Of a DNA stretch of 64,000 nt, positions 10,631 to 52,970 are shown in pieces (positions within the stretch are counted from its first letter, which is position 1; each line of letters starts with the position of its first letter). This DNA comes from Terriglobus albidus. GTDB lineage: Bacteria; Acidobacteriota; Terriglobia; Terriglobales; Acidobacteriaceae. A program made the translations under genes and the position numbers. Location of the stretch: positions 5,890,001 through 5,954,000 of the forward strand of contig NZ_CP042806.1 of NCBI RefSeq assembly GCF_008000815.1, in the 5' to 3' direction. A model generated the notes under the pieces. That model saw only the letters and a program-made list of their open reading frames with translations. It did no database searches and was not told the DNA's origin.

Positions 10631-10724
10631 GTTCGCGCGTAGCGCGAATGTATTGCTTAAGGGGACGGCTTCAGCCGTCCCGTATTACGCCCTGGAGAAA
10701 AGCGGCTTTAGCCTCTGAGGTCAA
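10631..10724 (+). repeat. Class A multi-hairpin intergenic element, copy 1
   Basis: Three successive hairpins: TTCGCGC/GCGCGAA with loop GTA; the perfect stem-loop GGGACGGCTTCAGCCGTCCC preceded by TTGCTTAAG; and GCGGCTTTAGCC, followed by TGAGGTCAA. It begins three bases after the stop of the upstream gene. Downstream, 10725-10806 holds only an A-rich spacer and the motif GAATTTATCGACAT. Confidence 0.85.
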
Positions 10725-10806
10725 GTACGTAGAGGGTAGGAAAGAAGATCCCTGCGGGATGACAAACAAAAAAGCGGTTCCGCACAGCTCGAATTTATCG
10801 ACATAC

Positions 10807-11208
10807 CTAACCGTGTTCGACGCGCGCCTTGATATCCGCATACGCCGCCTCGATCAGCCTGTTCAATGCACTGGTGTTCGCTTCCATCCCTGGCTTCAGC
10901 TTCACATGCCGCATGAACCTACCCGTGCCTTGCAATAGTCGCGCTGGATCTGGCAGGGCTGCGCCGTGAAAGAACCCAACGTTGACGTGGGCGGTGAAGA
11001 CATTGACGTAGCCGAAGGGAGCGTCGCCCAGACACACAACCGGACAGCCGTCATGCAGAAGCTCCCGCACTTCGTCCCCGCATCGCCGCATCACTTCAAA
11101 CCACGCCTGTGCGATGGAACCTAACTCTCCGCGATGTTCGTCCATCCATGCATCGATGGCAGGATCGCGTTCCACGGCGCCATCGAATCGTAGTATCTCC
11201 GCCTTCAT
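10807..11208 (-). CDS. DUF1801-type small protein
   Basis: The product is 133 residues from the ATG at 11208, which has GGAG five bases upstream; the longer open frame runs into the divergent P450 gene. It contains IDAWMDEHRGELGSIAQAWF, CPVVCLGDAPFGYVNVFTAH and GTGRFMRHVKLK, the pattern of DUF1801/YdhG-like proteins (helical start, then a small beta-sheet core with a KxR-rich C-terminal helix). No catalytic role is known. It is divergent from the P450 gene with 70 bp between starts, so the two may share a promoter region. Confidence 0.8.
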   Translation of the reverse strand: MKAEILRFDGAVERDPAIDAWMDEHRGELGSIAQAWFEVMRRCGDEVRELLHDGCPVVCLGDAPFGYVNVFTAHVNVGFFHGAALPDPARLLQGTGRFMRHVKLKPGMEANTSALNRLIEAAYADIKARVEHG

Positions 11209-11278
11209 TGCTGCTCCATTCGCCTTCGCCTCAATATTACCGGCCATTCCATATAGCATCAGTGAAGCGCGACACGCG

Positions 11279-12622
11279 ATGAGCGACATGCCTTTGACCG
11301 AAACGACATTGAAGGGACTTCCCTTTCTCGGCTCTGCGATCCCGCTAAGCCGCGATGCCTTGTCTCTCTTCACCACGTCTTTGCAGGACGCGGACCGCGT
11401 TCGCATGCGCGTCTTCGGTCGCACCGTTCTGCTGCTGAGCCATCCGCAGGACATCGAAGAGGTGCTTGTACGCCGCCGGGACGAGTACGGGCGATCGGCG
11501 GAGATCCTGAAACTGCAACCAATCTTCGGCAAAGGACTGCTCGCCAGCGATGGAGATCTGTGGCGTAAGCAAAGGTCTCTGCTACAGCCGAACTTCGGGC
11601 ACGCCGCCCTGAAGGAATATGCCGCGCAGATGCACAAGACTATCGCGAGGCTGATGGGCACGTGGAACGATGATGCCGTGCTCGATGTGCATCCCGCCAT
11701 GATGCAGTACACCCGCGAGGTGATCTGCGCGGTACTCTTCGGCGATCCGGTTGCCGGAGAACAGCAGCAGCTTGGCGAGGCTGTCACCACCGTCTTCGGC
11801 GACCTGCGAAGCGAGATTCTCTATCTCCCGTTATGGAGAAGACTGCCATTCAAACGCAGCCGTTCCTGGAATCAGGCCGTCGCTGTTCTCGACCGCTCTA
11901 TTCGAACCGCGATCGGCCAGCGGCGAAATCTGCCGCCATCGGGAAGCGACCTGCTTGACCTGCTGATGCATGCCAGCACGGCGGATGGCTACACCATGTC
12001 AGATGAGCAGTTGCGCGATGAGATTCTGACCTTCTTTCTTGCAGGCCACGAGACCGCCGCTCTCGGTCTGACCTGGGCACTGCATCTGCTGGCACAACAT
12101 CCGGCGGTACAGCAGAAGGTGACTGAAGAAGTAACCGCACTTCTGAACGACGGCGGCTCTCTCGCTGAGTCCTTCACGAAGCTGCCATGGACAACGGCCG
12201 TGGTGAAAGAAGCACTACGTCTCTATCCGCCGGTATGGAGCATGGGACGAAGAGCGGTCGCGAATACCGAGCTCGAGAGTGCTCCGGTAGAGAACGGAAC
12301 TGACATCTGGATCTGCGTCTATCGGCTTCATCGGGACCCGCGCTGGTATCCCGATCCGCATACCTTCGAACCGGAAAGATGGATCGACGCGCCGCCTCCC
12401 CGCAGCTTCACTTATCTTCCCTTCGGTATCGGACCACGGGTCTGTATCGGACAACACTTCGCGATGATGGAGTCCATCATCGGACTCGCCGCAATCCTCA
12501 GCAGGTTCCGGGTAGAAGCAACCGCCAAAGCAGCTCCGGAGTTCAGTGCATGGATTACACTTCGTCCGAAGACCCCGATCCGCCTTCGGCTGCGGGAGTT
12601 TCGGGATAATACTCGAGGATAA
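11279..12622 (+). CDS. Cytochrome P450
   Basis: The start at 11279 gives 447 residues, the standard soluble bacterial P450 length; earlier in-frame starts overlap the divergent gene. The I-helix oxygen-activation motif AGHETA is at 255-260, the ExxR motif at Glu311/Arg314 (KEALRLYPP), and the heme loop FGIGPRVCIG has thiolate ligand Cys389. The sequence style (AGHETAALGLTWALHLL, PVWSMGRRA) resembles the CYP4/CYP102-like bacterial class acting on fatty acids or terpenoids, but the substrate is not predictable. No ferredoxin or reductase gene is adjacent, so electron partners must be encoded elsewhere. Confidence 0.95.
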   Translation: MSDMPLTETTLKGLPFLGSAIPLSRDALSLFTTSLQDADRVRMRVFGRTVLLLSHPQDIEEVLVRRRDEYGRSAEILKLQPIFGKGLLASDGDLWRKQRSLLQPNFGHAALKEYAAQMHKTIARLMGTWNDDAVLDVHPAMMQYTREVICAVLFGDPVAGEQQQLGEAVTTVFGDLRSEILYLPLWRRLPFKRSRSWNQAVAVLDRSIRTAIGQRRNLPPSGSDLLDLLMHASTADGYTMSDEQLRDEILTFFLAGHETAALGLTWALHLLAQHPAVQQKVTEEVTALLNDGGSLAESFTKLPWTTAVVKEALRLYPPVWSMGRRAVANTELESAPVENGTDIWICVYRLHRDPRWYPDPHTFEPERWIDAPPPRSFTYLPFGIGPRVCIGQHFAMMESIIGLAAILSRFRVEATAKAAPEFSAWITLRPKTPIRLRLREFRDNTRG

Positions 12623-12640
12623 TCGGTACTCCCATCACAG

Positions 12641-12764
12641 ACCTCAGCGGCTAAAAGCCGCCTTCCCTATGGAACTCTGTATGGGACGGCTGAAGCCGTC
12701 CCCTTAAGCGAGGCATTCGCGCCAACGGCGCGAAATGGTTGCGCTAACGCGCAACGGTTCGCTT
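12641..12764 (-). repeat. Class A multi-hairpin element, copy 2, extending into the DUF899 remnant
   Basis: Read on the minus strand: an extra hairpin GTTGCGC-GTTA-GCGCAAC, a TTCGCGCC/GGCGCGAA hairpin, CTTAAG, a GGGACGGC/GCCGTCCC hairpin, then GGCTTTTAGCCGCTGAGGT. The extra hairpin supplies the last codons and stop of the truncated DUF899 gene. It fills the space between the convergent P450 and DUF899 genes. Confidence 0.85.
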
Positions 12765-13028
12765 AACCAGGGTGTCTTTATCGCCGAAGAGCTGTGAGAA
12801 ATGCACCTGGCCGTTCGGCCCCTGGAAGGTATAGTCTTCCGGAATCCTGCCTCCGAGGGGCAGAGCGCGGCGGAGCTCAGCAACCCGTTCGATGTTGCGC
12901 CGAAGGTCAATCTCCTCAGCGAGGAGTGCATTACGGGCCCGGCGATATTCCTGGCTTTCGTTGGGAAAGTGCATTTGGTTCTTTGCCGCAAGCTCTGTTG
13001 CGGGAGTGAGGCGAGGATCGTGGACCAT
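12744..13028 (-). pseudogene. DUF899 thioredoxin-like gene truncated at a class A repeat
   Basis: Start and upstream region look intact: TAAGGAGA precedes the ATG, and the first about 87 residues match the N-terminus of DUF899 proteins (NESQEYRRARNALLAEEIDL, RRNIERVAELRRALPLGG, EDYTFQGPNG...QLFGDKDTLV). A complete DUF899 protein is normally around 220-260 residues and continues with a thioredoxin-like domain containing CxMC or similar. Here the frame leaves the family immediately after DTLV and ends seven codons later (KRTVAR, stop) inside repeat-type sequence. The redox domain is absent, so the product cannot have the family's function. Truncation by repeat insertion or a repeat-associated deletion is inferred. 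Confidence 0.75.
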
Positions 13029-13143
13029 TCGCTTCTCCTTAGGGGGAGGTCACGTGCCAGCACACATTCTAATCATCCTGTGCGGCGATCTGTGCCGGCC
13101 CCATCAGTCCTTGCGAACGTGACTACAATGGAGGGAACTGTTT

Positions 13144-14856
13144 ATGGCAAACGAAGACATCCGGAACACCACTCCCGACCCCACCAACACACCCGAAACC
13201 GCTGACGACTCCACGGAGTCCTTCGGCGCGCTTCTCTCACAGTTTGAGAAGGAACATTCCGATCGATCGAAGTCAGAGCCCTCCCAGAAGGAAGGCATCG
13301 TGGTATCGATCTCGCCGGAGTCTGTGTTTCTGGATATAGGCTTCAAGGTTGAAGGCGTGCTGCCTCGTTCGGCCTTTGAGAACAACGCCGATGGCGTCGC
13401 TGTGGGAGACCGCTTTCCTGTCTCGGTCAAGGGACGCAACGAAGAGGGCTACTACGCGCTCTCGCGTTTGAAGATTGCACAACCGACAGACTGGGCTTCG
13501 CTGGAAGCAGCCTTTGCGCAGAAGACGCCTGTGGTTGGTATCGTGACCGGCGTTGTGAAGGGCGGCCTGACGGTCGATGTCGGTGTTCGTGCCTTTCTGC
13601 CTGCCTCGCGGAGCGGCACCCGCGATGCCGCCGAGTTGGAGAAGCTTGTCGGCCAGGAGATCACCTGCCGCCTCACTAAAGTGGACGCGGCCGACGAAGA
13701 CGTCGTCGTGGACCGCCGCGTCATCCTTGAAGATCAGGCCCGTCAGCTTCAGCAGCAGCGATACTCCGAAGTACGTGAAGGAGACATCGTCACCGGCCAG
13801 GTTCGCAGCCTTGCCAGCTACGGCGCATTTGTCGACCTGGGTGGCGTGGATGGCCTGCTGCACGTCAGCGATATCACCTGGCAGCGCATCAGCAGCCCCG
13901 AAGAAGTTCTTCAGGTCGGCCAGCAGGTGCAGGTCAAGGTTCTGAAGGTCGATGCCGACAGCAAGCGCATCTCGCTTGGCATGAAGCAATTGCAGCCCGA
14001 GCCCTGGGACACGGCGGGAGAACGCTATCCCCTTGGCCAGCGCGTCAGCGGTACCGTGAAGCGCATTGCCGACTTTGGCGCCTTTGTCGAGGTAGAGCCC
14101 GGCATCGAAGGCCTGATCCATATCTCTGAGATGTCGTGGGTCAACAAGGTACGCAAGGTCAGCGATCTGCTCAAGCTGCATGACACGGTGGAAGCGGTTG
14201 TCCTCGGCATTAGCCCGGCGGAGCGCCGTCTCTCCCTTGGATTGAAGCAGGCGCTCGGCGATCCGTGGGCCGCCGTTCCGCAGAAGTATCCTGCAGGTTC
14301 CGTGATTGAAGGACCGGTCATGCGGCTGACGAAGTTCGGCGCTTTTGTGCAACTGGCTGAAGGCGTGGAAGGTCTGGTGCATATCAGCGAGATCGATGCG
14401 GAGAAGCGCATCAACCATCCGCAGGATGTGCTGAAGGTAGGGGAGGTGGTCAAAGCCCAGGTGCTCGCCGTCGATATGGAGAAGCGGCAGATCAAGCTGA
14501 GCATCAAGCAGCTTGTTCCGACACACCTGGACGAGTTCCTTGCCGAGCATTCCACCGGTGACACCGTATCGGGCCGCGTGATCCAGCAGAGCGGAGATCA
14601 TGCCGTCGTGGAGCTTGGCGAAGGCATTCTTGCTGACTGCACCATCTCTGGGAAAGCTGAAACCGCCACATCGAGCGCGGCTGCTCCCGCACTCGATCTT
14701 TCAGCCTTGAGCTCCATGCTGAATGCACGCTGGAAGGGCGATGCGAAAGCATCTACCTCACAGGCACAACCGCTTCAAGTAGGACAGGTGCGCAAGTTCA
14801 CCATCGCTACGATGGACGCCTCCACGAAGAAGATCGCGCTGGAGCTGGTGAACTAG
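13144..14856 (+). CDS. rpsA: 30S ribosomal protein S1
   Basis: The protein has 570 residues, normal for a Gram-negative-type S1. Six S1 (OB-fold) domains are visible at about 50-110, 127-195, 213-283, 300-370, 384-456 and 472-560. Domains 3-5 are canonical (YGAFVDLGGVDGLLHVSDI; FGAFVEVEPGIEGLIHISEM; FGAFVQLAEGVEGLVHISEI). Domains 1-2 are the ribosome-binding type and domain 6 is degenerate. The family binds mRNA at the 30S platform and helps initiate translation on structured or weak-SD messages. GGAGGG lies before the ATG. A PEP-mutase-like gene starts 27 bp later. A second, specialised S1-domain paralogue is possible but less likely. Confidence 0.93.
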   Translation: MANEDIRNTTPDPTNTPETADDSTESFGALLSQFEKEHSDRSKSEPSQKEGIVVSISPESVFLDIGFKVEGVLPRSAFENNADGVAVGDRFPVSVKGRNEEGYYALSRLKIAQPTDWASLEAAFAQKTPVVGIVTGVVKGGLTVDVGVRAFLPASRSGTRDAAELEKLVGQEITCRLTKVDAADEDVVVDRRVILEDQARQLQQQRYSEVREGDIVTGQVRSLASYGAFVDLGGVDGLLHVSDITWQRISSPEEVLQVGQQVQVKVLKVDADSKRISLGMKQLQPEPWDTAGERYPLGQRVSGTVKRIADFGAFVEVEPGIEGLIHISEMSWVNKVRKVSDLLKLHDTVEAVVLGISPAERRLSLGLKQALGDPWAAVPQKYPAGSVIEGPVMRLTKFGAFVQLAEGVEGLVHISEIDAEKRINHPQDVLKVGEVVKAQVLAVDMEKRQIKLSIKQLVPTHLDEFLAEHSTGDTVSGRVIQQSGDHAVVELGEGILADCTISGKAETATSSAAAPALDLSALSSMLNARWKGDAKASTSQAQPLQVGQVRKFTIATMDASTKKIALELVN

Positions 14857-14883
14857 CGATCATAGGAAACACGGAGGAAAATT

Positions 14884-15720
14884 ATGGCTCCAGATCGTCG
14901 CGCGAAGGTAGAGAAGTTCCGCAACCTGCACGTACGGCCTGGAGCCTTCATCATTCCGAACCCATGGGATGTTGGCACCACACGTCTGCTGACGCATCTC
15001 GGCTTCGAAGCGCTGGCGACCACCAGCATGGGTTACGCCTTTTCGGTCGGACAGAAAGACAACACGCTGAGCCGCGAACAGGCGATCTCTCATATCGCCG
15101 CCATTGCCGCGGCTACCGATCTGCCGGTCAATGCCGATCTGGAGAACTGCTTCGGTGACGCACCGGAGGTGGCGGCAGAGACCATACGCCTGGCTGCCGA
15201 AGCCGGTGTCTCCGGCGGTTCAATTGAAGATGCGACCGGAGATGCAGCGAATCCCATCTATGCACGCGAGTTCGCGACAGAACGCGTGCGAGCGGCTGTA
15301 GAAGCAGCACGCAATGTTCCCGGCGGATTCGTCCTCACGGCACGCGCAGAGAACTATCTGCACGGGCGGCCGGACCTGGCCGATACCATCGCGCGACTGC
15401 AGGCGTATCAGGAAGCCGGCGCGGATGTGCTGTATGCACCGGGCCTTCGCACCAAGGACGACATCGCTGCGGTGGTATCGTCTGTCGATCGGCCGGTGAA
15501 TGTCGTGATGGGATTGCAAGGGGTGCAACTCAGCCGCGAGGAGTTAGCCAAACTCGGCGTGAAACGCATCAGCGTGGGGAGTTCGCTTTATCGCACAGCG
15601 CTCGGCGCGTTTCTGCGCGCAGCGCATGAGATGGCTGGGGCGGGAACTTTTACGTTTGCGGGCGATGCAGCGAATCCGAAAGAAGTAGCTGCGTTGTTGA
15701 CTGGTGAAGAGCTCGGGTAA
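14884..15720 (+). CDS. Isocitrate lyase/PEP phosphomutase superfamily protein
   Basis: The protein has 278 residues. The superfamily pattern is clear: PNPWDVGTTRLLTHLGFEAL (barrel start), TTSMGYAFSVGQKD, LPVNADLENCFGD (metal site; Asp and Glu), GVSGGSIEDATGD, then VLTARAENYLHG. The loop usually reading KKCGH in isocitrate lyases or KRCGH in methylisocitrate lyases is ENCFGDAPE here. This places it in the large uncharacterised subgroup that includes carboxyvinyl-carboxyphosphonate mutase-like and oxaloacetase-like enzymes. It probably makes or breaks a C-C or P-C bond in a small keto acid. CGGAGG precedes the ATG. It is likely cotranscribed with rpsA, with no obvious functional link. Confidence 0.9.
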   Translation: MAPDRRAKVEKFRNLHVRPGAFIIPNPWDVGTTRLLTHLGFEALATTSMGYAFSVGQKDNTLSREQAISHIAAIAAATDLPVNADLENCFGDAPEVAAETIRLAAEAGVSGGSIEDATGDAANPIYAREFATERVRAAVEAARNVPGGFVLTARAENYLHGRPDLADTIARLQAYQEAGADVLYAPGLRTKDDIAAVVSSVDRPVNVVMGLQGVQLSREELAKLGVKRISVGSSLYRTALGAFLRAAHEMAGAGTFTFAGDAANPKEVAALLTGEELG

Positions 15721-15749
15721 GCCACGCACTGGGTTTTGAAAGATCGGTA

Positions 15750-15860
15750 CCTCAGCGGCTAAAGCCGCCTCTTTCTGAGCTTCTATACGGGACGGCTAAA
15801 GCCGTCCCCTTAAGCAAGGCATTCGCACCTTTGGCGCGAAACAGTTGCGCCAAGCGCAAC
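15750..15860 (-). repeat. Class A multi-hairpin element, copy 3
   Basis: On the minus strand it has GTTGCGCTTGGCGCAAC, a TTCGCGCC-type hairpin, GCCTTGCTTAAGG, a GGGACGGC/GCCGTCCC stem-loop, and GGCGGCTTTAGCCGCTGAGG. It forms a head-to-head pair with copy 4. The 15861-15970 space between them shows no gene. Confidence 0.85.
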
Positions 15861-15970
15861 GATGATCGAGCAATATAGTGAAGATCTATTCTGCCGTCAC
15901 ACGCTCTATCAACTTCACCGTGTCCTGAGGACAGAACACAAGAGAGACGCTCGACAAACAAAGCTTGCCT

Positions 15971-16067
15971 CTCCTTCGCGCACCGCGCGAATGTCTTGCT
16001 TAAGGACACGGCTTTAGCCGTGTCGTACAGACTAGAAAGAGTTGGCGGCTTTAGCCGCTGAGGGCAA
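15971..16067 (+). repeat. Class A multi-hairpin element, copy 4
   Basis: TTCGCGC/GCGCGAA hairpin, TGTCTTGCTTAAG, stem-loop GACACGGCTTTAGCCGTGTC, then GGCGGCTTTAGCCGCTGAGGGCAA. The second stem differs from copies 1-3 (GACACGGC instead of GGGACGGC), yet both arms change together. The remaining 16068-16271 holds nothing I recognise. Confidence 0.85.
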
Positions 16068-16271
16068 TACTCTCAGAATCCCCGCCTTGTCATTTCGAAG
16101 TCGCCTCGGCAAAGAAAACCTTCTCGACATGGTCCCGTTGTGTATGGAGCTCCCAGTACAACGGAACAATCGCTTCGGGCTCGGCGCCTGGCTGCTGGCC
16201 GATCCACGCCCCGATGGCGACGTGTCCGCTACCCAAACACAGGAACAATTTGTCGATATACTCCGAGATCC

Positions 16272-17804
16272 TTACCGCGCCGTCCCCCAAATCGACTTCA
16301 ACCGCCAACTTCTCCCTGACACCGCAATCGCCTTCGTCCCTCCCTCACGAAAGACAACAGCTTTCACATTGCTGGTTGGCGGAAGCACAAGATTGGTCAT
16401 CGCAATCGTCCCATCCTGCGCGAAGACCTCCACCGAGGAACGATCCACCACAATCTTCAGATTCCACGGCCGTGTCGCAACCGTGCGAGCATCGGTCCTG
16501 ACAAGAAAGTTCTCCCCGGGAGATACACCCGCGTGGATGCGGTCGGCATAGACGACATGACCTGCCGTATCAAAGCCGATCTCAGTCCAATGGCTGTCGT
16601 CGGAGTAAAGGCGGACACCAAAACTCTCCGCATCTGTCGGAGCAAACGTAAGCTGCATCTCCATCGGGGACTCCAACGAAAGAAGCTCGGCTATTTCCTG
16701 CTTTGCAGCAAGCTGCTTGCGGATCGGTCGCGCCGCACCGTCATGCAAGGGAGCGGTGACTGGGTCTTCGCTGAGCACAAACGAGTCGCCATCCTTCACA
16801 GCGACGACACGCCTGGGCAAGGTCATCTGACCACGCCAGGGCTGGGTTGGAAGCTTATCGGCGTACTGCCAGTTACTCATCCATCCCAGCAGCGTGGGCT
16901 TTTCTCCCGGCGGCAGGTGGTTAAAGCTGATCGCGCAGTAGCTGTCCTTACCGTAATCGGTCCAGCGCACCGGGGTTCCTGGGAGCGAATGAAATTCCCG
17001 CCCATCGAAGTTGCCGAGGAAATACTGTTCCCCTGAGCCTCCCTGCAACGCCCCGGGATTGATGCCGACCTTCAGCGCCCAGATTTTCCTGCCACCATCA
17101 GCGGGTACTTGAAGCAGATCAGGGCACTCCCACTGCCCACCTGTCGCGCCTTCCGGACCAAACGTTGAGACCTTCGCCCACTGCTTCAGATCGGTGGAGG
17201 TATAGAACGCAACCTTATGTTCGTTGGGCAGTGCCACCGCCATCACCCAGCGATGGATCTGGTCGTTCCAGCTCACGTTCGGATCGCGAAAGTCAGCCAT
17301 ATCTAGATCGAGCACTGGATTGCCCGCGTAGAACTGCCAGGTGCGTCCGCGATCCTGGCTGGAGGCGATGCTCTGGCTCTCCCGCTGTTCACGTCCATTG
17401 CCAGGGCGATGACTTGTGTAGATGGCGACCATGCAAGGCTTGCCATCCTTGCACAGGCCGCTGGTGTTGTGTTCGTCCACCACAACGCTGCCGGTGAAGA
17501 TCATCTCTCCATCGTGCTCGGGCAATGCCACCGGAAGCTCTTTCCAGTGGAGCAGATCGCTGCTTACCGCGTGGCCCCAGCTCATGTGTCCCCATTTGTC
17601 GCCGAAGGGGTTGTATTGAAAGAACAGGTGATACTCGCCGTCGAAGTGAACAAGGCCATTCGGATCGTTGGTCCAGTTCTGCCGCGGAGAAAAGTGAACC
17701 TGCGGACGGTACGGTTCTGCATACGGCTTCCTGTCCTGGCATGAACCCGAAATGCTTCCTAATGCCACCAGCGCGAGCATTGCAATCACGTTGCATTTCA
17801 ACAT
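16272..17804 (-). CDS. GH32 fructan hydrolase (levanase/exo-inulinase type), secreted
   Basis: The ATG at 17804 gives 510 residues with a signal peptide (MLKCNVIAMLALVALGSISG, then SCQ; the Cys could be lipidated, but the lipobox is weak). The five-bladed propeller catalytic domain carries WTNDPNG with nucleophile Asp47, FRDP with transition-state stabiliser Asp174, and WECPD with acid/base Glu226. The C-terminal beta-sandwich contains SSVEVFAQDG, typical of GH32. Single-domain GH32 enzymes of this type release fructose from levan, inulin or sucrose. The gene is divergent from a MarR-GNAT gene, whose operator lies about 115 bp upstream of the GH32 start. No transporter is adjacent. Confidence 0.94.
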   Translation of the reverse strand: MLKCNVIAMLALVALGSISGSCQDRKPYAEPYRPQVHFSPRQNWTNDPNGLVHFDGEYHLFFQYNPFGDKWGHMSWGHAVSSDLLHWKELPVALPEHDGEMIFTGSVVVDEHNTSGLCKDGKPCMVAIYTSHRPGNGREQRESQSIASSQDRGRTWQFYAGNPVLDLDMADFRDPNVSWNDQIHRWVMAVALPNEHKVAFYTSTDLKQWAKVSTFGPEGATGGQWECPDLLQVPADGGRKIWALKVGINPGALQGGSGEQYFLGNFDGREFHSLPGTPVRWTDYGKDSYCAISFNHLPPGEKPTLLGWMSNWQYADKLPTQPWRGQMTLPRRVVAVKDGDSFVLSEDPVTAPLHDGAARPIRKQLAAKQEIAELLSLESPMEMQLTFAPTDAESFGVRLYSDDSHWTEIGFDTAGHVVYADRIHAGVSPGENFLVRTDARTVATRPWNLKIVVDRSSVEVFAQDGTIAMTNLVLPPTSNVKAVVFREGGTKAIAVSGRSWRLKSIWGTAR

Positions 17805-17918
17805 GAAGAGGTCACTTCCCTTTCGAGCCTTCGTGCATGGAAGCCTACAGATCGCTCTGCACAGACGCAACCCATCTGCCCGCCCTTCCGAGTTGCACAA
17901 AACCGCCCATTCGAGCTA

Positions 17919-17935
17919 TGTTGTCAGTGACAACA
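17919..17935. promoter_or_regulatory. Candidate MarR operator, TGTTGTC-AGT-GACAACA
   Basis: A perfect inverted repeat with seven-base arms and a three-base spacer (17919-17925, 17929-17935) lies just upstream of the MarR-GNAT gene, about 20 bp from its likely ATG. Size and placement fit a MarR dimer site used for autoregulation. It also lies in the shared region with the divergent GH32 gene. Confidence 0.6.
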
Positions 17936-17954
17936 CATGTTTGCGGAGGTGCGG

Positions 17955-18878: not shown

Positions 18879-18925
18879 TCAGAGAACTTCCGGCTCCGGA
18901 AGGTCAAAGACAGTGCATTCCCCGC

Positions 18926-18984
18926 TTGACACCCCTAAACATCTAGGCTTAACGTACTTCCCATACCTAGTTGCTTAGGGGAGG
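18926..18984 (+). promoter_or_regulatory. PadR promoter with long interrupted inverted repeat and Shine-Dalgarno
   Basis: TTGACA (18926-18931) is a strong -35. A 16-base arm (18932-18947, beginning CCCCTAA and ending CTAGG) pairs at 14 of 16 positions with 18966-18981 (CCTAG...TTAGGGG), the arms flanking the expected -10. The second arm runs into the Shine-Dalgarno GGGGAGG (18978-18984) for the GTG at 18989. A bound regulator would block both promoter and ribosome site, so PadR autoregulation is inferred. Confidence 0.55.
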
Positions 18985-28144: not shown

Positions 28145-28269
28145 ATTGGGTGGGAGATTCGAGCGAAGCTCTCTTTCGCGCATAGCGTGAATGCCTTGCT
28201 TAAGGACACGGCTTCAGCCGTGTCGTACACAAGGTGCAAAAGTAGTGCGGCTTTAGCCGCTGAGGGCAA
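28145..28269 (+). repeat. Class A multi-hairpin element, copy 5
   Basis: Includes the 5' extension GAGC-GAA-GCTC seen in copies 6 and 7, a TTCGCGCATAGCGTGAA hairpin with one mismatch, TTGCTTAAG, stem-loop GACACGGCTTCAGCCGTGTC and GCGGCTTTAGCCGCTGAGGGCAA. It lies just downstream of the GH3 gene. The motif AGTATCGACAAATTCACC follows at 28278-28295. Confidence 0.85.
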
Positions 28270-28306
28270 GGCAAGGAAGTATCGACAAATTCACCTTCAG
28301 AATTAT

Positions 28307-28440
28307 GGAGCGGGCCTTCAGCTCTTTAACTTCAAATCTGCCGGGTACCTGGGGCGTTGCTCAGGCTGGTATAGAGCGCGCGTTTCCACCCCAATGAACA
28401 AGTTCATCGGGGACCCCGGCCTTCAGCGCTCAATACTCAA
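28307..28440 (+). repeat. Class C intergenic repeat, copy 1
   Basis: About 130 bp, closely similar to 41770-41903. Landmarks in order: GAGCGGGCCTTCAGC, CTGGGGCGTTGC, GGCTGGTATAGA, then a hairpin of arms CCCCAATGAAC and GTTCATCGGGG, and CCCCGGCCTTCA. After it, 28443-28462 reads GAATTTGTCGATACGCCCC. No gene is seen between 28120 and 28533. Confidence 0.75.
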
Positions 28441-41634: not shown

Positions 41635-41744
41635 TCGAGCGCAGCTCCCGTTCGCGCATAGCGCGAATGTATTGCTTAAGGGGACGGCTTCAGCCGTCCC
41701 GCATTGACGCCTGAACGCAACGCGGCTTTAGACGCTGAGGTCAG
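41635..41744 (+). repeat. Class A multi-hairpin element, copy 6
   Basis: GAGCGCAGCTC, TTCGCGCATAGCGCGAA, TGTATTGCTTAAG, stem-loop GGGACGGCTTCAGCCGTCCC and GCGGCTTTAGACGCTGAGGTCA. Immediately upstream (41588-41620) is a diverged inverted fragment of the class C end: CGCTGAAGACCGGGGTCCC followed by GAACGAACTTGTTCGTT. Confidence 0.85.
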
Positions 41745-41769
41745 GTTGGTGGAGATATCAACGAATGAA

Positions 41770-41903
41770 CTATAGAGCGGGCCTTCAGCCCTTTAACACC
41801 TTTGTGGATGCCGGACACCTGGGGCGTTGCCCGGCTGGTATAGAACGCGCCTTTCCACCCCAATGAACAAGTTCATTGGGGACCCCGGCCTTCATCGCTT
41901 ATG
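41770..41903 (+). repeat. Class C intergenic repeat, copy 2
   Basis: Shares GAGCGGGCCTTCAGC, CTGGGGCGTTGC, GGCTGGTATAGAACGCGCC and the perfect hairpin arms CCCCAATGAAC/GTTCATTGGGG with the copy at 28307-28440. As at that site, it directly follows a class A element. The rest of 41572-41998 has no gene. Confidence 0.75.
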
Positions 41904-46266: not shown

Positions 46267-47510
46267 GCGAATCAAAGAAAAATGAAGTAGGTGGCGGACA
46301 GCAGCACCCGGAGCAACTCCCGCAGCGAGGGAGTTCCCGCAACGTCGTCCTCGGTCTGATCCTTGTCCTGCTGCTGTTGGTGATTGGCGCCGTCGCGGGT
46401 GTGTTCACGCGCGGCAAAGACAATAAAGAGCTGGAGAGATACACCGCAGCCAACGCCGCTCCCACCGTGGACCTGGTCGCTCCCAAGCGACAGGGTGCGG
46501 GCAAAGAGATTGTTCTTCCGGGCAATATGCAGGCGTTCACCCTGGCCCCTATCTACGCCAGAACCAGTGGCTACGTTCGTTCGTGGACGCATGACATTGG
46601 CTCCCATGTAAAGCAGGGTGAGCTGCTTGCAGTGATCGAGACGCCGGAGCTTGACCAGCAGCTTGCACAGGCGAAGGCAGATCTCGAAAGCGCAAAGACC
46701 AATGCCAGCATCGCGAAGGTCACGTCTGACAGATATCAGGACCTCGTGGGCAGCAACGCTGTCTCGCAGCAGGACACCGACAATGCTGTAAGCGTAACCC
46801 AGCAGCGCAACGCCGCTGTGCAGTCAGCGGAAGCCAACGTTCGCAGGCTGCAGGAGCTGGTTGGCTTTGAGCGCATCATCGCGCCCTTCGATGGTGTCAT
46901 CACGGCCCGCAACCTGGACGTGGGACAACTGATTACCGCCTCGGGAAGCACCGTGACCGCAGGCGCCGGGACCAATGTTGTTAGCCGGCAGGTCTTCGAC
47001 CTGTCAGACATTCGCAGGCTGCGCGTCTTCGTGAACGTTCCCCAGATGTACACACCCGATGCCGCTGTCGGCATGACCGCCTCACTGACACTGCCTCAGT
47101 ATCCGGGAAAGACCTTCACCGGAAAGCTTGTACGCACTGCCAGCGCCGTTGATCCCGGCACACGGACGTTGCTTGTGGAAGTGGATGTCGACAACAAAAC
47201 CGGGGAGTTGCTGCCGGGAAGCTACACGGAGGTTCACCTTAAGTCGACCGGTGAGGTGCCGGTGCTGCTCATTCCTGTAACCGCCCTGATCCTGAACGCG
47301 GAAGGACAACAGGTTGCCACGGTCGATGCACAGAATAAGGTCCATATGGTTCGAGTCACCACCGGCCGTGATTTTGGCACCACCGTTGAAGTGCTGAGCG
47401 GACTGGCAGAGGACCAGAAGGTTGTCGCCACCCCCTCGGACTCTCTTGCGGAAGGCGATGCCGTTCGGGTTGTCGCGCCGAAGCAAGACAACACAGGAGG
47501 CGCGAAGTGA
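46263..47510 (+). CDS. RND periplasmic adaptor (membrane-fusion protein)
   Basis: The protein has 415 residues. One transmembrane or signal-anchor helix is present (NVVLGLILVLLLLVIGAVAG, about 28-47). The lipoyl half-motifs are at about 85-115 (LAPIYARTSGYVRSW, HVKQGELLAVIETPELDQQL) and about 195-225 (FERIIAPFDGVITARNLDVG). An alpha-hairpin coiled coil (about 115-190), beta-barrel and membrane-proximal domains complete the architecture. It links the pump to the outer-membrane channel. It overlaps both neighbours by four bases, so it is translationally coupled. Confidence 0.95.
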   Translation: MSESKKNEVGGGQQHPEQLPQRGSSRNVVLGLILVLLLLVIGAVAGVFTRGKDNKELERYTAANAAPTVDLVAPKRQGAGKEIVLPGNMQAFTLAPIYARTSGYVRSWTHDIGSHVKQGELLAVIETPELDQQLAQAKADLESAKTNASIAKVTSDRYQDLVGSNAVSQQDTDNAVSVTQQRNAAVQSAEANVRRLQELVGFERIIAPFDGVITARNLDVGQLITASGSTVTAGAGTNVVSRQVFDLSDIRRLRVFVNVPQMYTPDAAVGMTASLTLPQYPGKTFTGKLVRTASAVDPGTRTLLVEVDVDNKTGELLPGSYTEVHLKSTGEVPVLLIPVTALILNAEGQQVATVDAQNKVHMVRVTTGRDFGTTVEVLSGLAEDQKVVATPSDSLAEGDAVRVVAPKQDNTGGAK

Positions 47511-48961
47511 CACGCAGGGCAAGTCTGGCTGCCGTAGGGATGGTTGGCGCTGCCCTGAGTATGGGCGGTTGCAAGGTCGGCCCTGCGTACAAGGCGCCGG
47601 CGGTGCAGGCTCCTCCTGCCTATTCCGAGAATGGCGCCAACGGCGGGCCAACGGGTAACTGGAGTGCCGCCGCTCCCGCTGACGATAAGAGCCGCGGTCA
47701 ATGGTGGACGGTCTATAACGATGCCACTTTGGATCAGTTGGAAGAACAGTGCGCCAACGCCAACCTGAGCATCGCTGCGGCCTCACAAGCATACGAGCAG
47801 TCGCACGCGCTGGTGCAGAGTGTGCGCTCAGCGCTCTTCCCTTCGGTGTCGATCGGAGCCTCGGCCACACGCAACCGCATTTCGTCCTACAGGCCGCTGC
47901 GTCCGACCACTGCTCCGAACTACTACTGGGACTTCCTGATTCCGCTCTCCATAAGCTGGGAGCCCGATATCTGGGGCCGTGTCCATCGCCAGATTGAGTC
48001 TGCCTCCGCTACTGCTCAGGCCTCGGCCGCCGACCTGGCGAACACCCGTCTCAGCCTGCAGGGAACGCTTGCAGCAACCTACTTCCAGATCCGCGGGATC
48101 GATCTGCAGACCAAGCTGCTGCAATCGACCGTGGATGCCTACACGGAGACCCTGGGTCTGACAGAGAACCGTCGCAAAGGTGGACTGGCGTCGGAGAGCG
48201 ATGTCGAGCAGGCGAAGACGCAACTGGAACAGACACGCGCGCAGTTGATCGATCTCGGCGTACAGCGTGCAAAGCTTGAGCATGCGATTGCTGTTCTGAT
48301 CGCCGTTCCTGCTCAAACCTACAAGCTCGCCGAAAAGCCACTGGACGGCGACCCGCCCGCGATTCCTGTCGGTATCCCCTCAGAGCTCTTGCAGCGCCGG
48401 CCGGACATCGCCACAGCTGAGCGCCGTGTCGCGGCAGCGAACGCGCTGATCGGAGTTCAGAAAGCAGCGTACTACCCGAACATCACCCTGGGCGCGAACG
48501 GCGGTGTTGAGAGCAGCGACATCACCAACCTTATGAATACGGGCTCGACGCTGTGGAATGCAGGCCCGTCAGCAAGCGAGATTCTTTTCGACGCGGGCCG
48601 CAGGAAAGCAAACGTACAGGCGGCAGTGGCACAGCGGGAACAGGCTGCGGCTCTCTACCAGCAGCAGGTTCTCTCGGCCTTCCGCGACGTGGAAGATCAG
48701 CTCTCGTCACTCCGCATCCTGGCGGATGAAGCCCAGGTCCAGCAACGCGCCGTCGCCAGCGCTGAACGTTCGACCGAGCTTTCTATTCTTCGTTATAAGC
48801 GCGGACTCGCACCTTATCTTGAAGTACTGACCAATCAGACGATCCAGCTTTCCAACGAGCGTGTCGCCGCCGGACTGGTCGCGGACAGAATCGTAGCGAG
48901 CGTCGGATTGCAGATCGCCATCGGCGGAGGCTGGAACTCACTGCAACTGCCGAAGAATTAG
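47507..48961 (+). CDS. RND outer-membrane factor (NodT/OprM family lipoprotein)
   Basis: The product is 484 residues from the GTG at 47507 (GTGA overlap). The signal peptide ends with a lipobox-like SMGGC, lipidation at Cys22, followed by KVGPAYKAPAV as in OprM/NodT proteins. Two OEP (TolC-like) helical repeats are present: about 75-260 (QWWTVYNDATLDQLEEQC) and about 290-470 (GIPSELLQRRPDIATAERRV). The C-terminus GLQIAIGGGW is typical. It forms the exit duct of the tripartite pump. It is the last gene of the operon; a class A element follows the stop. Confidence 0.95.
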   Translation: MTRRASLAAVGMVGAALSMGGCKVGPAYKAPAVQAPPAYSENGANGGPTGNWSAAAPADDKSRGQWWTVYNDATLDQLEEQCANANLSIAAASQAYEQSHALVQSVRSALFPSVSIGASATRNRISSYRPLRPTTAPNYYWDFLIPLSISWEPDIWGRVHRQIESASATAQASAADLANTRLSLQGTLAATYFQIRGIDLQTKLLQSTVDAYTETLGLTENRRKGGLASESDVEQAKTQLEQTRAQLIDLGVQRAKLEHAIAVLIAVPAQTYKLAEKPLDGDPPAIPVGIPSELLQRRPDIATAERRVAAANALIGVQKAAYYPNITLGANGGVESSDITNLMNTGSTLWNAGPSASEILFDAGRRKANVQAAVAQREQAAALYQQQVLSAFRDVEDQLSSLRILADEAQVQQRAVASAERSTELSILRYKRGLAPYLEVLTNQTIQLSNERVAAGLVADRIVASVGLQIAIGGGWNSLQLPKN

Positions 48962-48967
48962 AGCAAT

Positions 48968-49119
48968 ACACTGGGTGCCCCATCCATCGCGATAGCGATG
49001 GGTGGGATATTTGAGCGAAGCTCCGTTCGCGCATAGCGCGAATGTATTGCTTAAGGGGACGGCTTCAGCCGTCCCGCATCGACATCAGAGAGGCAGGCGG
49101 CTTTAGCCGCTGAGGTCAA
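48968..49119 (+). repeat. Class A multi-hairpin element, copy 7 (longest)
   Basis: Contains an extra 5' hairpin (CCATCGC-GATA-GCGATGG), GAGC-GAA-GCTC, TTCGCGCATAGCGCGAA, TTGCTTAAG, GGGACGGCTTCAGCCGTCCC and GGCGGCTTTAGCCGCTGAGGTCAA. It starts seven bases after the efflux operon and could act as its transcript end. Confidence 0.85.
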
Positions 49120-49157
49120 TGCATCGAAAAAGATGTCGTACTTTGGCGACTAGATTT

Positions 49158-49239
49158 GACCTCAGCGGCTAAAGCCACATGTCTTGCATGCGCTCAAACG
49201 GCATGGCTGAAGCCATGCCCTTAAGCAAGACGGAGCGCC
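49158..49239 (-). repeat. Class A multi-hairpin element, copy 8
   Basis: Inverted relative to copy 7, 38 bp away. Stems differ but remain paired: GGCATGGCTTCAGCCATGCC on the minus strand and AGCGCTGAAGGCGCT. The final GGCTTTAGCCGCTGAGGTCAA is conserved. Confidence 0.8.
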
Positions 49240-49277
49240 TTCAGCGCTTATCTAGCTGAAGCCCGCTGCTCCCACCC
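49240..49277 (-). repeat. Class B repeat fragment
   Basis: On the minus strand it reads GGGTGGGAGCAGCGGGCTTCAGC and then a degenerate continuation, matching the starts of the other class B copies. It directly abuts copy 8 of class A. The remaining space to 49524 has only the promoter below. Confidence 0.6.
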
Positions 49278-49318
49278 AAACTCCTCCATACCGACGTGCC
49301 TTGCCGCAGCAAACCTGC

Positions 49319-49348
49319 TTGACGACCATAAAAGTAGAATGCTACATA
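49319..49348 (+). promoter_or_regulatory. Candidate sigma-70 promoter
   Basis: TTGACG (49319-49324) and TACATA (49343-49348) with an 18-bp spacer, about 175 bp upstream of the secreted unknown gene at 49525. Prediction by eye only. Confidence 0.4.
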
Positions 49349-49524
49349 GGATATGTCATTTTCGGAAGAGTAAGGAAGGAAGACGAAGCCTATGGGAAAA
49401 GTCGGTAGATATCGTCAACCTTTCTTGCTCACTTCCGGTGACGAAGTTTTATCCCCGGTGTCTAACTGACCGAATCTCCAATTCCCGCCTGGATACTCAG
49501 GCGCCAGATAGTCGAGGCACAGCC

Positions 49525-50172
49525 ATGCGAATCTCTACAATGCTCGTGGTTCTTGGGGGACTCACGGCCCAGATCTCAGGACAGCCTGGCCAGACAACCC
49601 GTTTTGCAGAGGCGATGTTTATGCCAGAGGACAGGGCCGAGGATTCCTATGCTATTTATTCGCAACTGCTCAAGAGTGGTCCTATTGAATGGCGAGAGGC
49701 CAGCAGACAGCAGTGGCTTATCGAAGAAATCACCAATGCCACTCCACTCAGTACTGCTTGCCGGGCGCCCGAAGGCGGCCCGCTTAGGATGAATCCACAT
49801 CTGGCCGTCGAGGCCCCGGCGGATCGGCAAGCGGAGTGGGCCGAGGTTTTGGCGGACTACGACCAACACTGTCACGATGTGGTTCGCCTGAACCGGCAGA
49901 ATTTCAAAACCGAACTCCCGGTTCACCTGCTGAACACCGAAGATCGTTATAGATATATGCGGAACCCCAACAAACCGCCGGCGGAACTCGCCCATGGTGC
50001 AGGCATGCATCAGTTTACTGAGGTCTTCTTCAATACAAACCACACGCTGGCGCTGGTGGAGGAAGGCATGTGGTGCGGCTCGCTCTGCGGAAACTGGATG
50101 TGGGTTGTGCTTCAGCGGAAGCAGGATGGGTGGGAGATGCTGCCGTGGGTACGCGCTGCTGCGTTCTCCTAG
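49525..50172 (+). CDS. Secreted protein of unknown function
   Basis: The ATG at 49525 starts a signal peptide (MRISTMLVVLGGLTAQISG), giving 215 residues; an upstream extension of the frame has no family-like sequence. The mature part contains AEDSYAIYSQLLKSGPIEW, DYDQHCHDVVRLNRQNFKTE and LALVEEGMWCGSLCGNWMWVVLQRKQDGWEM. This C-terminal pattern is shared with small secreted proteins of Acidobacteriota. Two Cys near the C-terminus (CGSLC) may form a disulfide. I do not recognise a function. Confidence 0.7.
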   Translation: MRISTMLVVLGGLTAQISGQPGQTTRFAEAMFMPEDRAEDSYAIYSQLLKSGPIEWREASRQQWLIEEITNATPLSTACRAPEGGPLRMNPHLAVEAPADRQAEWAEVLADYDQHCHDVVRLNRQNFKTELPVHLLNTEDRYRYMRNPNKPPAELAHGAGMHQFTEVFFNTNHTLALVEEGMWCGSLCGNWMWVVLQRKQDGWEMLPWVRAAAFS

Positions 50173-50175
50173 ACA

Positions 50176-50260
50176 TTGCCATTGGCGGGACTCGACAGAT
50201 CCATCGCGAGCGTCGGGCTACAGCTCGCCATCGGCATACCGCCCTCGTGGAAGCCCTGGT
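50176..50260 (+). pseudogene. Possible remnant of an RND outer-membrane-factor C-terminus
   Basis: This stretch encodes LAGLDRSIASVGLQLAIG, close to the C-terminus of the OMF 1.2 kb upstream (AAGLVADRIVASVGLQIAIG). It follows the TAG of the preceding gene in the same frame and has no start of its own. A rearranged fragment of a paralogue is the simplest reading. The rest of 50173-50422 holds nothing else. Confidence 0.3.
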
Positions 50261-50422
50261 TTGTCCAAAACACCTCGCAGCCCCTTTCAGGGAACCGCCT
50301 TGCCGACGTAAACTCACTAGCTGGAACCAGAAATAATTCTGGTACTTGCCCTTACTGGCAGCATCAAAAGCGTGGTCTGATGCGATTGCTGGCTATTACC
50401 CGCTACGAGGTAGAAATACGCT

Positions 50423-51406
50423 ATGGCAACGGCGGCATACATAATTCGGCCTCAACTTGTCGAGCGTCGCGCGCGACTCCAGGCCGCTTCAGGATCGGTT
50501 CCTGACGACTATCTTCGAGAGCTTCTTGCGGAAGTAGATACTGCTCTCGCGAAGATCGAGGTCGGACGTTACGGCTTGTGTGAGACATGTAATGACTCCA
50601 TTGAAAAAGATCGGCTGGAGCTCGACCCTCTCTGCCGATTCTGTCTCGACCACCTGGACGACAAGGAACGGGCACAGCATCAAAAAGATCTTGATCTGGC
50701 AACACAGATCCAATTTCAGCTTTTGCCGCCGAGAAATCTCACACTGGAACGATGGGAGGCACAGTACCGCTACGAGCCTGTAGGGGCCGTGGGAGGCGAC
50801 TACTGCGAGGTAAGCCTGCAGGGTGACGCCGCCAGTGGCAACCAGCGCCTCTTTTTCGCAGTTGGCGATGTGGCCGGCAAAGGAGTCGCGGCATCCTTGC
50901 TGATGATGCACCTCAGCGCCATCTTTCGTAGCTTACTGTCGATGAACCTTTCACTTGCAGAGATCGTCACAAGAGCGAACCGCCTCTTCTGCGAGAGCAC
51001 CGGGCCGGCTCACTATGCAACCCTGGTGTGCGGTCGAGCTACCACGGACGGAATCGAGATATGCAACGCCGGGCACTGTCCGCCCCTCCTTCTGCTTCAT
51101 CACGGAACCGAATGGCTGGATTCAAACGGTCTCCCCCTGGGTATCTCCCCAAGTGCTCAGTACACGGTGACGCAGCACACCCCATGCGACGGAGAGTGTC
51201 TCGTCTTTTACTCCGATGGCATCACCGAGGCCACGAGTCCATCGGGAGACGACTACCAGCATGAGCGTTTGATCCAGACCCTCAGAGAACGGTTCCAGCA
51301 TGGCGCACACGCCATGTGTGACGCCGTACTGCACGATCTCGGACAATTCCGCGGAGCGACTCCAGCCGCTGATGATGTAACTCTTTTAATCGTGCGGCGC
51401 CACTAG
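50423..51406 (+). CDS. DksA/TraR-type zinc finger fused to a SpoIIE/RsbU-like PP2C phosphatase
   Basis: The protein has 327 residues. Residues 1-78 resemble DksA/TraR: a helical N-terminus, then ALAKIEVGRYGLCETCNDSI, with Cys53, Cys56, Cys71 and Cys74 as zinc ligands (CRFC). Residues about 100-327 are a SpoIIE-type PP2C domain: EPVGAVGGDYCEV, FFAVGDVAGKGVAASLLMMH, LVFYSDGITEA and ADDVTLLIV carry the metal-binding Asp residues. Such phosphatases dephosphorylate STAS anti-anti-sigma factors. The zinc finger may bind RNA polymerase or simply sense. The only STAS protein in the window (40245-40619) lacks the serine, so the substrate lies elsewhere. Confidence 0.88.
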   Translation: MATAAYIIRPQLVERRARLQAASGSVPDDYLRELLAEVDTALAKIEVGRYGLCETCNDSIEKDRLELDPLCRFCLDHLDDKERAQHQKDLDLATQIQFQLLPPRNLTLERWEAQYRYEPVGAVGGDYCEVSLQGDAASGNQRLFFAVGDVAGKGVAASLLMMHLSAIFRSLLSMNLSLAEIVTRANRLFCESTGPAHYATLVCGRATTDGIEICNAGHCPPLLLLHHGTEWLDSNGLPLGISPSAQYTVTQHTPCDGECLVFYSDGITEATSPSGDDYQHERLIQTLRERFQHGAHAMCDAVLHDLGQFRGATPAADDVTLLIVRRH

Positions 51407-51426
51407 ACTGGAACTCGTTGAACGAC

Positions 51427-52500
51427 CTACGTTCTTGCCTCGTACACGATATTAAAAGGTGTTTCCGTGGCCCGCCGGAAATGTGTGAACCCTGCGTTGG
51501 TTACCACATCGCGAATTCGCGCCTCGCCGGCCTGCGCGCCGAGGCACATTCCAACTTCCTGCGAGCGGGAGCAGGGTGTGCACAGGAGCGTCGAAAAGGA
51601 GTAATAGACCCGGCCGACTGGATTCAAATTGTCTTTGAGTTCGTCGTTGGCAAAAGGCTCCACAATCATCCAGGTACCCCCTGGAGCCAGGGACTGCCGC
51701 ACATGTTTGGCTGCCCCGACGGGGTCGCCCATATCGTGGAGGCAATCGAACACGGCGACAAAGTCATAGTCTTTGCCGGGAAACTCTTTGGCTTTGGCCA
51801 CCTCGAAGTGAACCCGATCGGACAGACCTTCCTTTTGCGCTTTTTCGCGCGCTGCCTCAACGGATTTGTCGTGGTAATCGAATCCAAAGAACTCCGATTT
51901 TGGAAAGGCTTTGGCCATCAGGATGGTGGATGATCCGGTGCCACATCCAACGTCGGCTACCCGCGCTCCTTGTTCAAGCTTTGCCTGGACACCCTGAAGT
52001 GCAGGGATCCAGGAACTGACGAGATTCGCAGCATAACCGGGCCGAAAGAACTTCTCGCACCCATGGAACACGCCCTCAACATGCTCACCCCAGCCCATGC
52101 CAGCCCCGGTTCGAAAGGATTCCGCAATTCGCGGCACGGCAGCCAACGAGCCCAATGCCAGTTCGAAGGCGCCGGGCAGATATGCCGGACTATCTTCCGT
52201 GGCAAGCGTGAACGCCTGTTCCGGAGTGAGGCTGAACTGCTGAGTCGATGCGTCGTATGTGATGTATCCGCCTGCTGCCTGTGACGCCAGCCATTCGCGC
52301 AGGTATCGCTCGTCTGTTCCCGTCTTTTTTGCCAGCTCAGCCGACGTCGCAGGTGCACCGGCGAGGGCCTTGTATAAGCCGAGTTTTTCACCGATCACCA
52401 CCATGCCGGCATGCACGGAAGCACCCAGGTCGTCGATGAACTTTCCCAGGAAGGCGTTCAGTTGATCCATATTGATGACAGGAGCCTGTGTCGTCGCCAT
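51427..52500 (-). CDS. Class I SAM-dependent methyltransferase with N-terminal winged-helix
   Basis: The protein has 357 residues. The N-terminus (about 20-100) is a winged-helix dimerisation-type domain (GLYKALAGAPATSAELAKKT, DERYLREWLASQAAGGYITY). The Rossmann methyltransferase begins at VADVGCGTGSSTI (181-193), with FFGFDYHDKSVEAA (motif II) and AVFDCLHDMGDP (motif IV). The layout matches O-methyltransferase-like proteins found in bacteria and mycobacteria. The substrate is unknown. AAGGAGA precedes the ATG. It is convergent with the phosphatase gene. Confidence 0.92.
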   Translation of the reverse strand: MATTQAPVINMDQLNAFLGKFIDDLGASVHAGMVVIGEKLGLYKALAGAPATSAELAKKTGTDERYLREWLASQAAGGYITYDASTQQFSLTPEQAFTLATEDSPAYLPGAFELALGSLAAVPRIAESFRTGAGMGWGEHVEGVFHGCEKFFRPGYAANLVSSWIPALQGVQAKLEQGARVADVGCGTGSSTILMAKAFPKSEFFGFDYHDKSVEAAREKAQKEGLSDRVHFEVAKAKEFPGKDYDFVAVFDCLHDMGDPVGAAKHVRQSLAPGGTWMIVEPFANDELKDNLNPVGRVYYSFSTLLCTPCSRSQEVGMCLGAQAGEARIRDVVTNAGFTHFRRATETPFNIVYEART

Positions 52501-52665
52501 AAGAGTCTCCTTTGCGGTGAGAGCATCTCCGCCCGGCCGAGATTAGGAGCAGCAGCAGCCGGTTTCGAGGCGGTAATTGTGCGCCGCTCACGTAGTGAAA
52601 ATCAAGCTTTCAGCGATGTTCCCGAAATCCGGACGGTTTCGATTGCAGTCAAGCTGTTCAAAACC

Positions 52666-52763
52666 TTGCCCTCAGCGGCTAAAGCCGCGTTGCTTTCTGA
52701 GCCCCGTACGGCACGGCTAAAAGCCGTGCCCTTAAGCAAGACAGAGCTCCTTCGGAGCTTTGC
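52666..52763 (-). repeat. Class A multi-hairpin element, copy 9
   Basis: On the minus strand: GCTCCGAAGGAGC hairpin, CTTGCTTAAG, stem of GGCACGGC and GCCGTGCC, then GCGGCTTTAGCCGCTGAGGGCAA. All stems differ in sequence from copies 1-8 yet pair. It forms an inverted pair with copy 10. Of the 52501-53023 gap, nothing else is recognisable. Confidence 0.85.
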
Positions 52764-52879
52764 CCAAGAAGCACCGCGAGACTTAGCCTCACGCATCGAT
52801 CTCCACGGTACGACCTGACAGAGATAGAGGGCTTTGCCACGTTACTCTGAAGCCGTTGCGCGCGGCGCAGCCGTTTCTC

Positions 52880-52970
52880 ACCGTAGGTGCGAATGTCTTG
52901 CTTAAGGGGACGGCTTTCAGCCGTCCCATATCTGTCCGACGAACAAAGCCGTTTTAACCGCTGAGGGCAA
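52880..52970 (+). repeat. Class A multi-hairpin element, copy 10
   Basis: CACCGTAGGTGCGAATGTC replaces the usual first hairpin, followed by TTGCTTAAG, GGGACGGC/GCCGTCCC, and a decayed AAGCCGTTTTAACCGCTGAGGGCAA. The motif CATCGTCAAATTCGCC follows at 52981. The end lies 54 bp from the histidine kinase stop. Confidence 0.8.

Follow-up and report, generated by a model that had tools for sequence, protein, structure and literature searches.

The window analysed here is a 64-kb stretch, bases 5890001 to 5954000, of the one-contig genome of Terriglobus albidus (6405582 bases). Seven sites in the window hold ten copies of a ∼95-bp, three-hairpin element, and all ten copies claimed in an earlier sequence-only reading of this DNA were located. 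From head to tail, the element consists of hairpin A, TTGCTTAAG, hairpin 1 (with stem 1), a linker, hairpin 2, and TGAGG. With a probability of roughly 0.85, the copies are nonautonomous mobile elements of the REPIN-like REP/TIR kind (REP, repetitive extragenic palindromic; TIR, terminal inverted repeat), associated with a RAYT (REP-associated tyrosine transposase) that would bind, cut, and spread them in trans. The copies are listed below; G000 is the T. albidus genome itself, G008 is a genome of the same genus, and G015 is a related genome.

10631 to 10724, + strand: copy 1; three hairpins; stem 1 GGGACGGC/GCCGTCCC; orthologous site in G008 and G015 also occupied
12638 to 12733, - strand: copy 2; stem 1 GGGACGGC; 15 bp past the stop of a cytochrome P450 gene
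15746 to 15839, - strand: copy 3; stem 1 GGGACGGC; head-to-head with copy 4
15974 to 16067, + strand: copy 4; stem 1 GACACGGC/GCCGTGTC
28174 to 28269, + strand: copy 5; stem 1 GACACGGC; convergent genes on either side
41650 to 41744, + strand: copy 6; stem 1 GGGACGGC; convergent genes on either side
49025 to 49119, + strand: copy 7; stem 1 GGGACGGC; tail-to-tail with copy 8
49156 to 49250, - strand: copy 8; stem 1 GGCATGGC/GCCATGCC
52666 to 52761, - strand: copy 9; stem 1 GGCACGGC/GCCGTGCC; head-to-head with copy 10
52876 to 52970, + strand: copy 10; stem 1 GGGACGGC; tail stem imperfect, GCCGT/ACCGC
54801 to 54862, + strand: possible decayed copy, uncertain; weak model match (28.3 bits, E 1.6e-4)

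Three of the start positions given in the sequence-only reading (28145, 41635, and 48968) took in flanking sequence. The full form of the shared motif that it described, GCGGCTTTAGCCGCTGAGG(T/G)CAA, was exact in 4 of the 10 copies. Three of the seven sites (15.7/16.0, 28.2, and 41.7 kb) are flanked by convergent genes that both have Pfam support, and two further sites (10.7 and 12.7 kb) lie between convergent genes if unassigned open reading frames (ORFs) are counted as genes. No element copy was found inside a Pfam-supported ORF among the 18 window ORFs that were compared with Pfam; the intergenic position of the copies was assessed for the window alone. A scan of the window against Rfam gave no family at the gathering score.

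The orthologous sites differed among the genomes. At the site of copy 1, one further inverted copy was present in G015. Copy 2 (12638) was not found in the matching stretch of G008 or G015, where the alignment comprised the right flank only, and copies 3 and 4 (15746/15974) were missing in G015, with both flanks aligned, and in G008, with the left flank aligned. The 41.7-kb site (copy 6) has a copy in the opposite orientation in G015. The tail-to-tail pair at the 49-kb site (copies 7 and 8) was also present in G008, and G015 had a different repeat there, while the pair at the 52.7-kb site (copies 9 and 10) corresponded to a single copy in G008 and a fused remnant in G015.

The sequence-only reading had proposed a covariance-model search of the whole genome. 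The model, R1, which was built from 42 copies, returned at least 150 genome matches, all below an E value of 2e-14, and the exact head pattern had 95 matches compared to 0 for the reversed control. From 192 model hits, 158 were carried on (the 34 that were dropped comprised overlap duplicates and most hits under ∼50 bits), and 152 of these were parsed. Among the matches listed (150), 48 of the 49 neighboring pairs less than 400 bp apart were inverted.

In the 152 parsed copies, hairpin 1 has an 8-bp stem with a loop that is mainly TTCA or TTTA, hairpin 2 has a 5-bp stem (GCGGC/GCCGC in 112 copies), and the linker between the two is 19 to 22 nt long in 149 copies. The main stem 1 variants, each with its complement, were GGGACGGC (51 copies), GGCACGGC (45 copies), GGCATGGC (29 copies), and GACACGGC (6 copies); there were 7 distinct 5' arms, and the pairing was perfect in 137 copies. 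Consistent with the earlier claim that the first hairpin varies in sequence and remains paired, a stem of at least 5 bp was found within the 35 bases ahead of the head in 120 copies, compared to 10.8% of random genome 35-mers. This hairpin A had 34 distinct 5' arms, and in 92 of the 120 copies precisely 4 nt separated its end from the head. Read from the outside inwards, the 5' feet are TTAAG on hairpin 1 and CCTCA on hairpin 2, and these were conserved at least as much as the stems, a result that is partly circular because parsing required the TAAG and near-TGAGG anchors. On the inner side of stem 1, the next bases are GTAC, whose opposite strand also reads GTAC, in 41 copies and GTAG in 10. 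Five copies folded as single-stranded DNA gave lower energies than dinucleotide shuffles (z, -2.8 to -4.8), and their minimum-energy folds kept hairpin 1 in all five, hairpin A in four, and hairpin 2 in just two.

The paired changes in the stems are real, as had been claimed, and the evidence for them comes from within the genome and from across species. Both alignments were evaluated with a tree-based null in which Fitch changes were moved to other places on a FastTree tree (60 simulations), with average product correction of the G statistic. Of the parsed copies, 144 entered the within-genome analysis (143 distinct rows), in which 2 of 1891 column pairs reached an E value of <0.05, both of them stem 1 pairs. 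Across species, 63 copies from 28 RAYT loci were aligned, and the 54 rows that were left after removal of 3 truncated and 6 gappy rows gave 4 of 2016 column pairs at an E value of <0.05, all stem pairs; the top seven column pairs were also stem pairs. Paired cells made up 95.8% of the 63-copy alignment, which was fitted to the structure; in slid controls the proportion dropped to 29 to 54%. Such paired changes might also arise if a few subfamilies simply shared descent and pairing were not under selection, and few events do lie behind stem 1 within the genome (0 to 7 Fitch changes per column), where only 2 of the 13 stem pairs reached an E value of <0.05. However, the confinement of significant pairs to stems in both analyses, the changes on both sides of 12 of the 13 stem pairs across species, five measures that were reached by none of 500 shuffles, the slid controls, and the preservation of the upstream hairpin through 34 different arms make this explanation extremely improbable. 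Neither an absence of supported covariation nor decay of the copies from one unpaired ancestor was observed. With regard to the earlier suggestion of selection on an RNA or single-stranded DNA structure, covariation supports selection on a folded structure, which may act as RNA or as single-stranded DNA.

The genome contains seven Y1 transposase genes (hits to PF01797), none of which lies in 5890001 to 5954000, in agreement with the sequence-only reading, which had placed no RAYT gene in the window and had suggested looking for one next to a copy. Three of the seven (near 5757, 5760, and 5797 kb; L005, L006, and L007) sit between inverted copies of the element, the nearest ending 92 kb upstream of the window. 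Identities of the three enclosed RAYTs to the third were 88 to 94%, and for each of them an IS5 element interrupts one flanking copy within a hairpin loop. In these three and in two homologous loci from other genomes (L126 and L127), the element ends 26 to 29 bp from the RAYT start and the other flanking copy encodes the final residues of the RAYT, YLSG, and its stop; the C terminus DEYLSG is identical in L126, L127, and L128. The proteins from L005, L006, and L007 exceed the cutoff of NF047646 (REP-associated tyrosine transposase). A profile of 14 RAYTs had its best match in the Escherichia coli TnpArep structure 4er8 (E 3.8e-19), and H57, H59, and Y112 were invariant in the 14 sequences, as in an HUH, single-tyrosine RAYT. 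The motifs are DHIH, WQRGFTDHRIR, and YIA[QR]NP.

Enclosure by the element extends to other genomes. The survey took in 30 of 76 RAYT loci. Among 22 homologous loci from other genomes (L126 to L147, 21 of them acidobacterial), 14 were enclosed by inverted copies, 3 had a one-sided copy, 2 had another arrangement, and 3 had either none or a distant weak match. No copies were found at nine nonacidobacterial loci (L146 and L148 to L155), where the own-genome model would miss diverged families. The four other Y1 genes of T. albidus (L001 to L004) had no copy within 1.5 kb on each side.

These arrangements suggest how the element may be maintained and spread. Each copy is a doublet of two unlike inverted hairpins, mostly with a third, more variable hairpin ahead; the complete unit is element, RAYT gene, and inverted element, and the dispersed copies are ends of this unit without the gene. 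The RAYT, a Y1 HUH transposase, most likely binds the folded single-stranded hairpins, recognizes their feet, cuts and rejoins the hairpins, and spreads copies in trans. We propose that pairing is kept because the RAYT protein needs the folded hairpin. The repeats, their covariation, the RAYT genes between copies, and the differences among orthologous sites are observed; binding, cleavage, mobilization in trans, and the single-stranded intermediate are what we infer.

Several observations weigh against this proposal. The element has no canonical GT[AG]G foot, though the RAYT keeps residues at the described recognition spacing. NF047646 was also applied to two of the remaining four Y1 proteins, L002 and L003, and both exceed its cutoff without having copies nearby; RAYT status alone therefore does not predict copies. 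Among 41 genomes (T. albidus and 40 relatives, relatedness uncontrolled), element matches were found in 24 at an E value of 0.001 and RAYT matches in 22 at an E value of 1e-10; both were present in 18 genomes and neither in 13, so that 6 genomes had copies without a RAYT match and 4 showed the reverse. Element counts for G000 and G008 are lower bounds. No clean empty sites were found when 45 and 96 element sites were compared with the available loci.

The copies might alternatively be RNA elements selected by the host, such as 3' ends, mRNA stabilizers, or bidirectional terminators, with mobility being past or incidental. This possibility, which is compatible with spread by the RAYT, draws on the convergent genes at three, or with unassigned ORFs five, of the seven sites, on the GU-type intermediates GGCATGGC/GCCGTGCC in 3 of 152 copies, and on the listing of one hairpin as terminator-like in 7 of the 10 copies (7 of 30 listed sites). 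However, terminator-like sites overall were not above shuffles (19 compared to a mean of 15.6, standard deviation [SD] 4.1, and 11 compared to 9.5, SD 3.9), and on this ground terminators were rejected, although seven copies supply a listed site. The same element type also encloses RAYT genes, and copies vary and are rearranged among related species. Host-selected RNA elements therefore seem unlikely as the explanation. It is more doubtful still that gene conversion, recombination, or a different insertion sequence (IS) spreads the copies and that the RAYT is a mere carrier. Inverted pairs and fused remnants point to recombination, many copies are interrupted by IS481, IS110, or IS5 elements, and the six genomes with copies and without a RAYT match would also fit. 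The IS elements, however, cut the hairpins and do not enclose them. In addition, related RAYTs are flanked by enclosing copies at many acidobacterial loci, and the remaining four Y1 genes of T. albidus have no copies nearby. Mobilization by the RAYT remains the preferred reading.

Repeat families that are associated with RAYTs and whose stems vary in a complementary fashion have been described before, as have RAYT-like genes of acidobacteria that carry TIRs. RAYT-like Y1 genes of acidobacteria (TIRtrons/TIRYT) are enclosed by TIRs, some of which overlap the gene and some of which form dispersed families and dimers (PMC3733652). That source also describes subfamilies with alternative complementary stem residues, as well as a clearly delimited group of proteins from Terriglobus saanensis, Koribacter, Acidobacterium, and Granulicella. 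The element resembles TIRtrons in having a RAYT-type gene within TIRs, a likeness by description; paired stem changes and three hairpins, both present here, are not described for those TIRs in the parts consulted of PMC3733652. Compensatory changes in REPIN hairpins have been reported (PMC3116915), and selection for complementary mutations in REPs has been inferred (PMC2817692). Like REPINs and BIMEs (bacterial interspersed mosaic elements), the element has inverted hairpin doublets, high copy number, extragenic position, an enclosed RAYT, and complementary stem changes. It differs from them in its TTAAG and CCTCA feet in place of GT[AG]G, in the unlike hairpins of the doublet, and in the mostly present extra outer hairpin.

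With at least 150 hairpin-forming copies, the element is a high-copy, palindromic repeat, and its window copies are intergenic. Inverted copies enclose 3 of the 7 Y1 genes in the genome and 14 of the 22 homologous loci, and the near-fixed linker corresponds to the spacer of a REPIN, in which two REPs are inverted, but the two hairpins differ here. GT[AG]G does not stand directly 5' of either hairpin. The element therefore belongs with RAYT-associated repeats, but its different feet set it apart from canonical GTAG REPs. Thus, the REP/BIME-RAYT analogue named in the sequence-only reading holds for the RAYT genes enclosed by copies and not for the type of REP.

The RAYT shares DHxH, WQ, a length of ∼150 amino acids, and YI..NP with subclass 2.5 TnpAREP proteins, or RAYT group 3 (PMC6006769). 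It has W, Q, D, H, and R at the guide-recognition spacing given in that paper, as judged by spacing and not by alignment to the E. coli protein. DHIH and YIA[QR]NP in the RAYT compare with DH[LF]H and YI[VI]ANP in subclass 2.5, and the repeats here are without GT[AG]G. By motif alone, the RAYT appears closest to subclass 2.5 and not identical to it. A more tentative possibility is that acidobacterial RAYTs have changed their guide: W, Q, D, H, and R would stay at GTAG-pocket spacing while the unlike feet TTAAG and CCTCA on unlike hairpins are recognized, one small transposase would move an asymmetric doublet, and feet and stems may have coevolved with the RAYT across genera. Among the matches listed from the open-access literature, acidobacterial repeats of the RAYT-linked kind appeared only in PMC3733652 and PMC6006769.

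The copies are unevenly distributed along the chromosome. Among the matches listed, 139 of 150 fall in 41% of the chromosome (from 5.0 Mb through 0 to 1.2 Mb). Copy density in T. albidus peaks at the RAYT genes, with 43 of 102 sites within 200 kb compared to 6.4 expected; 0.2 to 2% of random positions equalled this peak. Nearby copies were also more alike (Mantel r, 0.21; reached by 0 of 2000 permutations). Nevertheless, a general chromosomal compartment is preferred over local spread around the RAYT (cis-preference), because the density around the RAYT was weak in other genomes (equalled by random positions at 11% in G011 and 37% in G004, none by eye in G007), copy decay showed no trend with distance from the RAYT (Spearman, 0.05), and an unrelated repeat family was skewed in the same direction (hot half, including the window, 8 matches in 184 kb; cold half, 0 matches in 280 kb). 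This second repeat family and the noncoding fraction (0.132 versus 0.076) were split likewise in the tiles that were sampled, the window among them. A correlation between distance from the consensus and distance from the RAYT was set aside because the consensus is itself determined by the nearby copies, which confounds the comparison. The second repeat family reads GAGCGGGCCTTCAGCCC, followed in fuller copies by CTGGGGCGTTGCCCCAG; it occurs in the window at ∼28305 to 28345 and 41767 to 41853 and in the matching stretches of G008 and G015.

REPs are already known as IS targets (PMC1525189). In T. albidus, all 18 IS481 left ends (L291 to L308) and all 7 IS110 left ends (L309 to L315), located genome-wide by exact pattern and placed at position 1501 of each locus, sit in GGCT-type hairpins, each coming after an arm of that type, and 24 of these 25 hairpins were recognizable as belonging to the element family. 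IS481 ends lie in hairpin 1, adjacent to CACGGC in 16 of 18 cases, to CATGGC in 1, to GGGACGGC in 0, and in a degenerate context that is not clearly of the element family in 1. IS110 ends lie in hairpin 2 in 7 of 7 cases, and segments in the 3' noncoding stretch of IS110 resemble its target by eye. An IS5-family element with ends CAGTTTGCGG was seen in hairpin loops at L005, L006, L007, L040, L041, L052, L236, L244, and L254, and an unassigned element with IS5-like ends CAGGCTGCGG was seen in the same loops at L018, L041, L043, L053, L233, L241, L247, L251, and L254, in a sample that is biased in that the loci were chosen for carrying copies. By eye, the 4-nt loop flanks the insert on either side in the five loci with both ends (L005 to L007, L018, and L052). 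A few ends were in other palindromes (L043 and L233).

With this family, which is acidobacterial and has a foot other than GTAG, the range of RAYT-linked repeats is extended. The paired stem variants from many genera are a large natural series for testing RAYT recognition. In addition, the ends of IS481 and IS110 (genome-wide) and of IS5 (in the loci seen) in the hairpins are useful for studies of target choice, including that of the RNA-guided IS110.

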